Below, one piece after another: positions 55,210-61,521 of a stretch of 64,000 bases of DNA. Position numbers and translations under genes: made by a program. This stretch comes from Weissella confusa (GTDB lineage: Bacteria; Bacillota; Bacilli; Lactobacillales; Lactobacillaceae), in the NCBI GenBank assembly GCA_014332815.1, contig JACSZT010000020.1:1-64000 (forward strand). The letters are read 5' to 3'. Every line of letters starts with the position of its first letter. Positions within the stretch are counted from its first letter, which is position 1. Under the pieces are notes generated by a model. That model saw only the letters and a program-made list of their open reading frames with translations. It did no database searches and was not told the origin of the DNA.

Positions 55210-55725
55210 ATGTTGGATTTGCATGATTACGTTGCCTCAATCCCTAACTTCCCAGAAGAAGGGGTTACGTTCCGCGACATTACGCCTTTGTTGGCTGATG
55301 GTGCCGCTTATGCGGAAGCAACGCGTCAAATTACTGAATTCGCCAAGGAACGTGGTGTTAACCTTATCGTTGGCCCAGAGTCACGTGGATTCTTGGTTGG
55401 GGCACCAGTTGCCCACCAAATGGGCATTGGATTGATTCCAGCCCGTAAGCCAGGCAAGTTGCCTCGCGAAGTTATTAGCCAAAGCTACAAGCTAGAATAT
55501 GGTGAAGCAACTTTGGAAATGCACAAGGACGCTATCAAGCCTGGTGATAAGGTGTTGATTACGGACGACTTGTTGGCCACTGGTGGTACAATTGAAGCCA
55601 CGATTAAGTTGGTTGAAGCCCTTGGCGGTGAAGTCGTTGGTTTGGCTTTCTTGATTGAACTTAACGCTTTGCACGGTCGTGATCGTCTTGACGGTTATGA
55701 GTTGTTGGCATTGATGAATTACTAA
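55210..55725 (+). CDS. apt: Adenine phosphoribosyltransferase
   Basis: The 171-residue enzyme has [20 protein letters not shown], the PRPP motif [13 protein letters not shown] and [14 protein letters not shown]. It salvages adenine to AMP with PRPP. The length is normal. AGGAGAGC overlaps the end of recJ four bases upstream. Confidence 0.97.
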
Positions 55726-55730
55726 TAAAA

Positions 55731-55776
55731 ATAGGACCATCTGTTCAGGATTTGAACGGATGGTCCCTTATTTTTT
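55731..55776. terminator. Bidirectional terminator between apt and lexA-like gene
   Basis: AGGACCATC-TGTTCA pairs with TTGAAC-GGATGGTCC (with a small internal difference), with A-rich sequence on the left and T run on the right. Confidence 0.85.
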
Positions 55777-56407
55777 AATAAATTGAATCGCGATACAGCC
55801 CCACAACTTTACCCAAAATGGTAATGCCAGTAGTGATAACTGGTTCGTGGTTGTCATTTTCTGGTTGTAAGCGATATTGTGAGGCCTCGCGGAAGAAGCG
55901 TTTGATTTGTGTTTGACCGTTGTCGGGCTTTGCGACAACGATATCACCGTTATCCGCATCATTCTGACGACGAACAATCATGTAATCACCATCTAGAATC
56001 CCGATGTTAATCATGGCATTGCCACGATTGCGAATCATAAACAAGTCACCTTCAAAACGAATCAAATCATCTGGCACAGGGAAGTAATCGACAATATGAT
56101 TACTCAAATGTTCATCAGACGCGATGGGCTCGTTTTCGTCCATAATTGGCATCATGGTCTTATTTGGTTCGTGGAGACCAAGTGCTTTGATGCCTTCTGG
56201 CGTGACATCGATTGCACGCGGTTTGTCTGGGTCCTTATGAATGAAACCTTTCTTTTGTAAACGACTTAAGTGGCCGTGTACGGTTGATGATGATGATAAA
56301 CCAACACCTTCACCAATTTCACGAACGGTTGGTGGATAACCTTTTTCGAGTTGTTTTTCGTAAACAAAACGGAGGATTGCAATTTGATTACTTTCTTTTT
56401 CGGTCAT
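55775..56407 (-). CDS. lexA: LexA-like repressor lacking catalytic Ser and cleavage site
   Basis: The 210-residue protein has the LexA winged HTH (YPPTVREIGEGVGLSSSSTV, HLSRLQKKGFI) and a peptidase-fold C-terminus (NIGILDGDYMIVRRQ, NGDIVVAK, IKRFF with the Lys at 169, ILGKVVGLYR). Where LexA has G-D-S-M, this protein has RGNAM (Ala131; codon GCC), so the nucleophile is missing. The Ala-Gly bond region is replaced by MPIMDENEPIASDEHLSNHI with no AG. Self-cleavage should therefore be impossible. ATG 56407 is favoured because AGGAGG is only two bases from the outer ATG at 56416. No GAAC-N4-GTTC box is seen upstream. Confidence 0.9.
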   Translation of the reverse strand: MTEKESNQIAILRFVYEKQLEKGYPPTVREIGEGVGLSSSSTVHGHLSRLQKKGFIHKDPDKPRAIDVTPEGIKALGLHEPNKTMMPIMDENEPIASDEHLSNHIVDYFPVPDDLIRFEGDLFMIRNRGNAMINIGILDGDYMIVRRQNDADNGDIVVAKPDNGQTQIKRFFREASQYRLQPENDNHEPVITTGITILGKVVGLYRDSIY

Positions 56408-56541
56408 AAGTGGCATAACCTCCTAATTTGAATTAATTACTATCTATTTTACTTTTAATTCGGGCGGAAATAAAGTGGAGGCGGGAATGATTGCGTTTTC
56501 GTGTTAAAATAGATGAAAAGCAGATAAAGGTGGTGAAAACC

Positions 56542-56796
56542 ATGGCAGAAACAGAACGTATGATGGCTGTGCGTACCCGCATTAATGAATTGGCAGCCAA
56601 GGCGAAGACGCCTGAAGGATTGACTGACGACGAAATCGCAGAGCGTGCAGAATTGCGTACGGAGTTCTTGGATAACTTCAAGGCTGCTTTCCGTTCACAA
56701 GTTGAGATGTTGCAAGTTTTCGATGAAAACGGTAATGAAGTCACACCTGAAAAGGTGAAGGACATTCAACGTGATAAGGGATTACGTGACAACTAG
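56542..56796 (+). CDS. DUF896/UPF0291 family protein (YnzC-like)
   Basis: The 84-residue protein has the DUF896 pattern RINELAAKAKTPEGLTDDEI and RAELRTEFLDNFKAAFRSQV with DENGNEVTPEKV. In Bacillus subtilis ynzC lies divergent from lexA with yneA and yneB in an SOS operon; here yneA and yneB are missing. AAAGGTGGTGA precedes the ATG. Function is unknown. Confidence 0.88.
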   Translation: MAETERMMAVRTRINELAAKAKTPEGLTDDEIAERAELRTEFLDNFKAAFRSQVEMLQVFDENGNEVTPEKVKDIQRDKGLRDN

Positions 56797-56886: not shown

Positions 56887-57120
56887 ATGAGCACTAGTAT
56901 TTGGATTTTGATTGTTATCCTTGCCGCAGTCTTGGGTGCAGTTGCAGGGTTCTTCTTGGCACGTCGCTCAATGCAAACGTACTTGAAGAACAACCCACCT
57001 ATCTCAGAAGAGATGATGAAGTCAATGATGGCTTCAATGGGTCAAAAGCCTTCACAAAAGCGTTTGAACCAAATGATGGCTCAAATGAAGGCACAATCAC
57101 AAGCTTCTTCAAAGAAGTAA
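56887..57120 (+). CDS. UPF0154 family small membrane protein (YneF-like)
   Basis: The 77-residue protein has one N-terminal membrane helix (IWILIVILAAVLGAVAGFFLA) and the family motif NPPISEEMMKSMMASMGQKPS. Its role is unknown. TACAAT at 56850 is a possible -10; TGGAG precedes the ATG. Confidence 0.92.
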   Translation: MSTSIWILIVILAAVLGAVAGFFLARRSMQTYLKNNPPISEEMMKSMMASMGQKPSQKRLNQMMAQMKAQSQASSKK

Positions 57121-59245: not shown

Positions 59246-59319
59246 CAAAAATTCCCACCCGACCAATTTTGCCACTTCTGCTAAAGTTAGGTTGTTATTT
59301 AAATAACGGAGGTGAGGCA

Positions 59320-61521
59320 ATGCGAAAGGTGCTGAATACAGTGCTAGCCATGCTGCTGGTGATTGCTTGTGGGATTGGATTGATGAGTGTTCATGCATCG
59401 GCAAAGGCCGGAGATGATCCGGGCGTGTCAATTTCAGCTAATTCACCAATCCAATCAAATGGAAATGTTGATTTAACGGTTACAGTGGCCGGGTCGGCAG
59501 GCAAGTTCAAAAAGCCGGGTGAGATACGGGTTGTCATTCCTAAAACCATTGTGGCAGACCAGAAGCAACTGCAAACTGGGTTGCGAATTGATCAGCCGTT
59601 TTATGTTAGTGACAACGCTGTTAGTGATGACGGAAAAGGTCATTTCGTTCTGACGGTGAATTATGATCCGAGTCAAATTAATCAACAAGCCGCTAATGGC
59701 TACACGTTTGCGTTACGCTTCCGAGCGTCATATTTCGAGAACAATAGCACCGTGCCTGAACAAATCAGTTTTAGTGATGCGCTGGTTATCAACGGAACGA
59801 CAGTAAGCACTGATCAAACGACAGTTAATACCGTGCCATCAAAATCAGACCATCCTGCGTTTACGAAATTCACAAATGCGCCCGGAACTAGCGTTGGTGG
59901 TGAATTTAAGTATGTGATGAACACAACGAATCCGAGTGAAAATAATTTTGTTTTAATTGTTAACTACAACGAACAAAGTTATTCGGATTTGACAGTTGTT
60001 GATCAATTGCCAAAGGGGCTATCGTTGGCTGATTCGTACAGTGTTTTCCCGGATGCAACCGGAAATGATGCCGATATCAAGCACTTGAAGATTTATCGTG
60101 TTACCTTTGATGCAAAAGGTAATAAGCATGCAAAGTATGTCACTGATCAATTCGCTAACGATATCACGGTAACTGATAAATCGTTATCCGTTCACTTTGG
60201 CCGTGTTGAATCTGACGAAAGTTATGTCATCTCTTACGGTGCCTCAGTTGATGATGACTATCTAGACACTAATAAGTTTGGCACAGAGTACAATCACGCT
60301 GAGATGCGTGAGAATGACAATACGCTATACGAGGCAAAAGTGCCGTTGATTTTGTCGGATACGAATTTCCAAAAGAATTATTTGTTGAAGACGGTTGATA
60401 AAACGCAAATCGCATCTGAAACGGCAACGTTACAATACGGATTGGATTTGGAAAGCCGCGAAGGTGTTATTCCGGCGGGCACTGTGATTAAGGATTCATT
60501 GCCTGAAGGTGTGACGTTCAGCAAAACGGTTCAGAATACTGATTATTCTGAGGCAACGTTTGATAAGTCGACACGAACGGTCAGTTATGTTTTGAAACAT
60601 GATTTGAATTCTGGTCAAAATGCGAAGGTTGTCTTTGATGTTCAGCTAGTCGGGGATGACAGTGTCGATAAGGTTGTTAATAAAGCTAGTTACACGTATG
60701 CAGGGTCAACAATCTTTAGTAATGATGTCACAACGTTCATTGACTCAGCACTTTTGCATAAAGTTGATGAAACAACCGGTAATCCTTTAGCGGGGGCCGT
60801 CTTTAAGTTGGTTGATGCTAAGGGCCGAACGGTAAAAGAAAATTTGACGACGGATGAGAGTGGTACAATCCACTCAGGCGTTTTGCGTCCTGGTGATTAC
60901 GCTTTTATTGAGACGAAAGCACCAACGGGGTATGTGTTAGATACGACGCCGGTTAGGTTTACCGTCGTAGATGGTCAACTGGTGACACTTGATTTAACCA
61001 TGTTTAATCACCAGCCAAGAAACATTTCGGTATCTGGACAGAGGACGTGGCAAGATCAAAATAATCTGATGAACACGCGCCCAGATACGACTACCGTTGA
61101 TCTTTACCGTGATGGTCAAAAGATTGATAGTCAGCGGGTTAGTGCAGCGACGCAATGGCAGTATCATTTCGATAATTTGCCAGGAGCGGCTGATAACGGA
61201 ACGCCATATGACTATACGGTCCGTGAAGAAAAGGTCGCAGGTTATACAACGGAGCAAAATGGTTATAACTTTACGAACGTCTTGAATCCAATTGAACCAA
61301 TCGTGCCTAACCAGCCGAATAAACCTGATGCACCAGCTAATTCAGAACAATCCGAGACGCCAATGTTAACGGGCAATGCAACGTCGCAACCGACCTTATC
61401 ACCAAATTCAAAGGTGAACTTACCTGATACAAGCGCAAAGTCATCTTTTTGGCTCACGTCATTGCTTTTGTCGGTGATTATCAGTGTAGGTGTTGGGTTG
61501 TCGATTAAGTATAAGCCATAA
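59320..61521 (+). CDS. LPxT-anchored surface adhesin-like protein with Cna-type and SpaA-type domains
   Basis: The 733-residue protein has a signal peptide ending ASA, an N-terminal beta-sandwich (about 30-190), an isopeptide-rich adhesin part, a SpaA/prealbumin-like domain (KVDETTGNPLAGAVFKLVDA; GDYAFIETKAPTGYVLD), a Cna_B domain (TWQDQNNLMNTRPDTTTVDL), a Pro-rich linker and a sorting signal NLPDTSAKSSFW plus helix and KYKP tail. The motif is LPDTS, with Ser in place of the usual Gly. It should be attached to the wall by a sortase. AACGGAGGTG precedes ATG 59320, and a 14-base palindrome GTTATTTAAATAAC lies at 59294-59307. Confidence 0.85.
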   Translation: MRKVLNTVLAMLLVIACGIGLMSVHASAKAGDDPGVSISANSPIQSNGNVDLTVTVAGSAGKFKKPGEIRVVIPKTIVADQKQLQTGLRIDQPFYVSDNAVSDDGKGHFVLTVNYDPSQINQQAANGYTFALRFRASYFENNSTVPEQISFSDALVINGTTVSTDQTTVNTVPSKSDHPAFTKFTNAPGTSVGGEFKYVMNTTNPSENNFVLIVNYNEQSYSDLTVVDQLPKGLSLADSYSVFPDATGNDADIKHLKIYRVTFDAKGNKHAKYVTDQFANDITVTDKSLSVHFGRVESDESYVISYGASVDDDYLDTNKFGTEYNHAEMRENDNTLYEAKVPLILSDTNFQKNYLLKTVDKTQIASETATLQYGLDLESREGVIPAGTVIKDSLPEGVTFSKTVQNTDYSEATFDKSTRTVSYVLKHDLNSGQNAKVVFDVQLVGDDSVDKVVNKASYTYAGSTIFSNDVTTFIDSALLHKVDETTGNPLAGAVFKLVDAKGRTVKENLTTDESGTIHSGVLRPGDYAFIETKAPTGYVLDTTPVRFTVVDGQLVTLDLTMFNHQPRNISVSGQRTWQDQNNLMNTRPDTTTVDLYRDGQKIDSQRVSAATQWQYHFDNLPGAADNGTPYDYTVREEKVAGYTTEQNGYNFTNVLNPIEPIVPNQPNKPDAPANSEQSETPMLTGNATSQPTLSPNSKVNLPDTSAKSSFWLTSLLLSVIISVGVGLSIKYKP

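Follow-up and report, generated by a model that had tools for sequence, protein, structure and literature searches.

A LexA homologue of Weissella without its self-cleavage parts: a probable genus-wide dismantling of the SOS circuit

Introduction

A gene for a homologue of the repressor LexA lies in a stretch of 64,000 nucleotides from Weissella confusa (GenBank assembly GCA_014332815.1, contig JACSZT010000020.1), called the window below. A preliminary description, made from the letters of the sequence, held that its product should be unable to cleave itself and regarded it as a former SOS repressor that has become independent of RecA. The locus thus raises the question of what such a protein is: an artefact of one assembly, a gene in decay, or a repressor with another task. 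It also raises the question of how far the change reaches among the relatives of the strain. In the consulted part of a survey of 15 genomes of the Lactobacillaceae group, the LexA regulon is called universal across those genomes, and Weissella was not found mentioned there (PMC3616900). No report of a LexA loss of this kind was found in the titles and abstract openings of the open-access papers that literature searches listed.

Results

The protein and its neighbourhood

The window protein reaches 163.2 bits against the lexA equivalog TIGR00498, above the cut-off of 110.95, and is 96% identical to the LexA of three W. confusa records. Both LexA domains are recognised in it (Table 1), and the recognition-helix region SSSSTVHGHL is intact. 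The open reading frame, the codons and the Pfam matches agree with the preliminary description that the DNA-binding domain and the catalytic lysine are kept and that the catalytic serine is replaced by alanine. The same description had reported the cleavage region to be free of Ala-Gly, and no Ala-Gly scissile bond was found in the linker of the window protein. Its residue numbers, 131 for the alanine and 169 for the lysine, hold when counted from Met4, which is probably the true start as it aligns with the start of W. confusa proteins; from the first ATG the residues are 134 and 172. An AlphaFold model, for which 28 related sequences were used, has a pLDDT of 82.9 and a pTM of 0.56. A fold search with this model returned LexA and related S24 structures; the top PDB hits are LexA proteins, the laboratory mutant S119A (1jhh) included.

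Table 1. Features of the lexA region in the window
Feature	Position	Strand	Remarks
apt, adenine phosphoribosyltransferase-like	55210..55725	+	open reading frame, named by eye; convergent with lexA
lexA homologue, predicted protease-dead	55775..56416	-	213 aa from the first ATG; 210 aa from Met4, the probable start
S24 peptidase domain	55802..56104	-	residues 105-205; PF00717 Peptidase_S24, 84.8 bits
Catalytic Lys codon AAA, kept	55901..55903	-	read from the DNA
Ala codon GCC (RGNAM) at the catalytic Ser position	56015..56017	-	read from the DNA
Linker MPIMDENEPIASDEHLSNHI	56093..56152	-	occupies the place of the Ala-Gly cleavage site in other LexAs
LexA DNA-binding domain	56213..56389	-	residues 10-68; PF01726 LexA_DNA_bind, 67.4 bits
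lexA / DUF896 divergent intergenic region	56417..56541	.	without SOS box
DUF896 (YnzC) gene	56542..56796	+	PF05979; conserved divergent neighbour
UPF0154 (YneF) gene	56887..57120	+	PF03672

The absence of yneA and yneB beside lexA had been taken as a sign of change. DUF896/YnzC and UPF0154/YneF do adjoin in place of these two, but this layout is family-wide. In the sampled flanks of 29 lexA loci from other genera, a YneF relative lies near lexA in 29/29 and a YnzC relative in 23/29, and the first divergent open reading frame of at least 60 aa is one of the two in 22. The absence of yneA and yneB at this place was therefore rejected as a marker. Within Weissella the DUF896 gene is present in all 28 genomes of the genus. 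In one genome (G006; L317 / G006:C1:909488-912453) about 2 kb separate lexA and DUF896, against a short intergenic region in its relatives. Further along the window, the open reading frame at 59269-61521 (+) reads, by eye, as a large surface protein that carries an LPDTS-like anchor at its C-terminus.

Reliability of the sequence

The assembly of the window is prone to frameshifts (completeness 66.51). Its own recA (G000:C14:128699-129493) and dinB (G000:C15:1949-2578) are read in pieces in several frames, and the absence or breakage of genes there needs care. The breakage of these two genes might suggest that the altered LexA is a sequencing or assembly error as well. However, the lexA frame is whole, unlike recA and dinB, and the alanine and the linker without Ala-Gly recur in three W. 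confusa records (L057-L059) and in a W. cibaria SP7 record (L060), which makes such an error unlikely. Since assemblies made independently within the clade share these residues and the loss runs across the genus, an error is refuted at the protein level, and its probability is practically nil. Two of the records, L057 and L058, carry the title W. confusa DSM 20196, yet their lexA regions diverge by about 7% (L005 versus L007); one of them may be mislabelled.

Distribution of the loss in Weissella and the family

A search of the genus found a lexA homologue in 25 of 28 Weissella genomes. None of the 25 aligned proteins has the Ala-Gly; the serine is present in four (L015, L016, L020, L026) and the lysine in six (L003-L008), and the two never occur together (0/25). 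In the same alignment, Ala-Gly, Ser and Lys are all present in 109/109 LexAs of Lactobacillaceae outside Weissella (36 genera), and likewise in 10/10 LexAs of distant phyla. The 109 proteins were taken from 143 non-Weissella genomes with a match; the 34 left out were further species of the same genera, plus G044 with its weak match. Ala-Gly and a complete Ser/Lys dyad thus stand at 0/25 in Weissella against 109/109 in the other genera, and these counts indicate that the loss of self-cleavage is genus-wide rather than a one-off event.

The residues at the dyad vary by lineage within the genus. The serine position carries A, N, T, S, H or D, and the lysine is replaced by Y, A, G, L, D or S, as would be expected of a protease no longer in use. 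The DNA-binding columns R32, E33, T45, R67, T72 and G75 are invariant in all 25 proteins. Some copies are damaged: L021 (G026) is broken by a stop codon and ends before the dyad, and L026 and L027 (G016, G017), at 174 and 172 aa, are too short, their C-terminal domain being degraded. In the remaining three genomes (G002, G014, G024) lexA is cleanly lost; apt borders the empty site, and the interval from apt to DUF896 is otherwise intact.

The preliminary description had also allowed for a true paralogous LexA elsewhere in the genome. An S24 profile run on the genome of the window matched the lexA described here and one signal-peptidase fragment only. On the 28 genomes of the genus it matched 23 LexAs, those of G016 and G017 being absent because of their shortened C-terminal domain, and gave 21 further partial matches. 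Eight of these 21 were read; they are signal-peptidase-like, one of them SipW-like, and the two that were scanned are Peptidase_S26 in Pfam. Neither a true LexA nor UmuD nor an S24 phage repressor was recognised in the 28 genomes, with eight of the 21 partial matches read. A second LexA of the true kind, whether in the genome of the window or elsewhere in the genus, was rejected on these grounds.

Selection on lexA

Six pairs of the confusa clade (L003-L007) give a lexA dN/dS of 0.006-0.020 at a dS of 0.68-1.1, with 0-0.010 for the C-terminal domain. For pairs with canonical LexA, taken as controls, the range is 0.005-0.052 at unsaturated dS, so the ratios of the clade are as low as those of most pairs with intact LexA. 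Judging from these values, strong purifying selection acts on the entire protein in this clade, and the dead protease domain is no exception. Together with the motif counts, this bears out the earlier claim that both parts of autoproteolysis are lost in an intact gene. In L017/L019/L023 the C-terminal domain has a dN/dS of 0.16-0.24 and the DNA-binding domain 0.02-0.05, which indicates that the dead C-terminal domain is relaxing there. Such a pattern would be expected if DNA binding were still in use and lineages differed in their use of the C-terminal domain.

SOS boxes at lexA, recA and dinB

The SOS box was searched as GAACN4GTTC within 250 bp upstream, with matches of at least 7 of 8 bases accepted and chance expectation obtained by first-order resampling. 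None was found in the 250 bp upstream of the window lexA, where the best match has 6 of 8 bases, in line with the earlier remark that no box is visible there. The box stands upstream of lexA at 106/109 loci of other genera and at 4/25 Weissella loci, with 1.1 expected by chance (Fisher p 1e-17). Upstream of recA it was found in 35 of 39 other genera, 31 times in perfect form; among 27 Weissella loci it occurs once at 7 of 8 bases and never in perfect form, with 1.9 expected (p 4e-13 versus the others). The recA of the window genome (G000), broken in the assembly, is outside these 27. Upstream of dinB, counted in Weissella only, 7 of 8 bases are matched at 2/27 loci, and no conclusion was drawn from this.

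The four other genera without a box at recA are G054 and G060, where LexA was not found, G044 with its weak LexA match, and G062 with an intact LexA. G062 (L138, L272) has canonical LexA motifs and a box at neither lexA nor recA; it is an exception to the coupling of LexA and the recA box, and perhaps another rewiring. The upstream regions of Weissella recA (L151-L177) carry strongly conserved blocks, AATTAGGTTA...ACT and TTAAGTTAAAGTTAA, around the promoter. These blocks were rejected as LexA sites, as they are also found in genomes without lexA.

A candidate operator

In three genomes the perfect GAACN4GTTC occurs at 32, 18 and 33 sites, and the reversed pattern at 49, 30 and 66. No genome-wide enrichment was found in them; the motif is rarer than its reversed control, and its count was dropped as a sign of a regulon. 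All sites were read in two genomes. One of 18 lies outside open reading frames in G003, near a contig end, with the other 17 inside, and four of 33 do so in G006. Of these four, one belongs to a terminator-like hairpin, one sits in a palindrome on a 30-kb contig, and one (L288) precedes a regulator-like gene, where the genomes are too alike for a judgement. The last precedes, by 115 bp, the probable ATG of a cell-wall hydrolase with LysM and NlpC/P60 domains (L290:46-1410; site 1507-1518). Its arms are unchanged in five genomes of the confusa clade. The site comes in two alleles, GAACTTATGTTC in G006, G007 and G010 and GAACAAACGTTC in G005 and G000, which differ at three of the four spacer bases. 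Across the surrounding 220 bp, identity to the G006 copy is 84-97%. Kept arms with a changed spacer are the pattern that a selected operator would leave, and the site is accordingly named a candidate, a single one that was picked after looking. The hydrolase region was not found in W. cibaria SP7 (G003).

Divergence of RecA

The RecA of Weissella is strongly diverged as well. The loop after the RR motif is longer by 6 to 9 residues in 27/27 Weissella proteins, and an insertion is present in 0/39 other genera; loop lengths were taken by pattern for 23 Weissella and 35 others and counted by eye for the rest. In an alignment with PDB structures the insertion sits between G229 and R243 of the E. 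coli protein, presumably numbered without the first Met. These two residues are listed among the RecA positions of strong LexA contact in the part of the source consulted (PMC3834820). A longer loop is not unique to Weissella, since RecA of G464 has one of +4; G464 is guessed to be Streptococcus-like from its loop, which resembles that of S. pneumoniae.

The ratio of RecA to GroEL distances is 1.72-1.96 in 13/13 Weissella and 0.76-1.26 in 25/27 other genera. The exceptions are G052 (1.66) and G057 (1.50), both with intact LexA. G052 and G057 were excluded from the list of conserved RecA columns, and G052, G054 and G060 from one average of the comparison. In quick trees built from different row sets, the stem branch of Weissella measures 1.39 for RecA and 0.055 for GroEL. 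The RecA tree joins Weissella to G057, with a long-branch warning. The GroEL tree places the genus among G045, G055, G034, G065, G054 and G050 (SH-aLRT 96), of which G045, G055, G034, G065 and G050 have canonical LexA motifs. The divergence may be read as an acceleration after the loss of a duty; a transfer is also possible.

Discussion

The gene is kept in most of the Weissella species examined and the parts for self-cleavage are lost, so the protein probably has a different, damage-independent job. In our preferred explanation, which we consider probable, LexA lost its self-cleavage on the Weissella stem, the SOS circuit was dismantled, and the protein is now a RecA-independent repressor of a changed set of genes. 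RecA-stimulated self-cleavage would have been lost on that stem, the operators at lexA and recA would have vanished, and RecA would have been altered in a region implicated in LexA contact. LexA would now be a stable dimeric repressor, blind to DNA damage, acting on a small, changed set of non-SOS genes of which the LysM-NlpC/P60 hydrolase is one candidate. Any regulation of it would act through its amount, through modification or through another protease. The conversion of an SOS repressor into a RecA-independent regulator, as the preliminary description had it, is thus partly supported; the genus-wide extent of the loss, the missing boxes at recA and lexA across the genus and the altered RecA had escaped it. 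Some findings speak against this explanation. The losses, the stop codon, the shortened proteins and the relaxing domains reported above would also fit slow decay. The motif is not enriched and the candidate operator is known from five close genomes only. The divergence of RecA may have another cause, as it is milder in G052 and G057, where LexA is intact.

The same damaged copies, with the dyad residues that differ among lineages, are what a decaying relic would leave, its SOS operators gone and lexA slowly eroding with nothing important to do. Against this stand the dN/dS of the confusa clade, like that of most controls with intact LexA, and the DNA-binding columns conserved across the genus, and we regard a relic as quite improbable. 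It is somewhat less doubtful, and still unlikely, that RecA came by transfer from a distant donor unable to cleave LexA, with the loss of the dyad following. The very long RecA stem beside the short one of GroEL would agree with a transfer, as would a Weissella RecA that is about equally identical to those of Lactobacillaceae and of other Bacilli. However, no close donor was found among 299 genomes of the phylum, where the best reached 69%, and on a common alignment the highest identities are to Lactobacillaceae (71.2% to G055). The donor could possibly be one outside the sample.

Two narrower proposals, both to be taken with reserve, refine the preferred explanation of a damage-blind repressor. 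LexA may have been repurposed under the control of a ligand, of phosphorylation or of another protease, a sub-case of that explanation. This is conceivable, and rather doubtful as it stands. The C-terminal domain is dead and yet conserved in the confusa clade, and a change in phosphorylation has been proposed for the LexA of Synechocystis in the consulted part of PMC7567884; the fold search, in contrast, gave just LexA and related S24 structures. The other proposal, offered tentatively, is that the LexA-RecA partnership was dissolved from both sides in one episode. RecA would have been freed of its co-protease role and its contact loop remodelled, and LexA, its cleavage lost, would have become a damage-blind regulator of cell-wall remodelling, acting through the GAACN4GTTC operator kept in front of the LysM-NlpC/P60 hydrolase.

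Among known systems, the protein shares with LexA/DinR of Bacillota (TIGR00498, MEROPS S24) its full-length homology, the DNA-binding domain, the S24 fold and the YnzC/YneF neighbourhood seen in other Lactobacillaceae. It differs from them in the missing Ala-Gly, the replacement of Ser by Ala, and the absence of the SOS box at lexA and recA. The closest precedent, as far as its source was consulted, is the LexA of Synechocystis sp. PCC 6803, which likewise has neither Ala-Gly nor the dyad serine and is described as standing outside SOS (PMC7567884). The window protein fits this type of natural non-cleavable LexA, with both parts missing. However, Synechocystis belongs to another phylum, whereas Weissella is a whole genus inside a family with canonical LexA, with a matching loss of boxes and a change in RecA. 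IrvR of Streptococcus mutans, a RecA-independent LexA-like member of the superfamily, still cleaves itself with an intact dyad according to the part of the source consulted (PMC7101444), whereas the LexA of Weissella has no dyad. The laboratory mutant LexA S119A and its equivalents (PDB 1jhh and 6a2s, by their entry titles) share the Ser-to-Ala change, its position given by alignment; unlike them, the window protein is natural and has lost the cleavage site too. The LexA-less genomes G054 and G060 likewise have no SOS box at recA. Streptococcaceae are a LexA-less lineage; in contrast to them and to G002, G014, G024, G054 and G060, most Weissella keep lexA.

The finding also touches published proposals on LexA. 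The consulted part of one report proposes, from an E. coli RegulonDB motif, that LexA represses the gene for dextransucrase in the W. cibaria strains C2-32 and SP7 (PMC9498152), and the part consulted of another puts forward LexA as a repressor of levLX in Leuconostoc mesenteroides (PMC10177778). From its residues, the LexA of SP7 (L060, G003) would not be expected to serve as a damage-inducible switch. This suggests that control of dextransucrase by LexA, if real, could not be relieved by SOS cleavage. More broadly, if the preferred explanation is true, Weissella would offer an experiment of nature: the SOS switch removed across a genus, the repressor retained, and relatives with the full circuit beside it. 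It would let one ask what constraint remains on RecA without its co-protease role and what LexA does without RecA, and it would bear on DNA-damage handling and prophage induction in this genus of fermentation bacteria.
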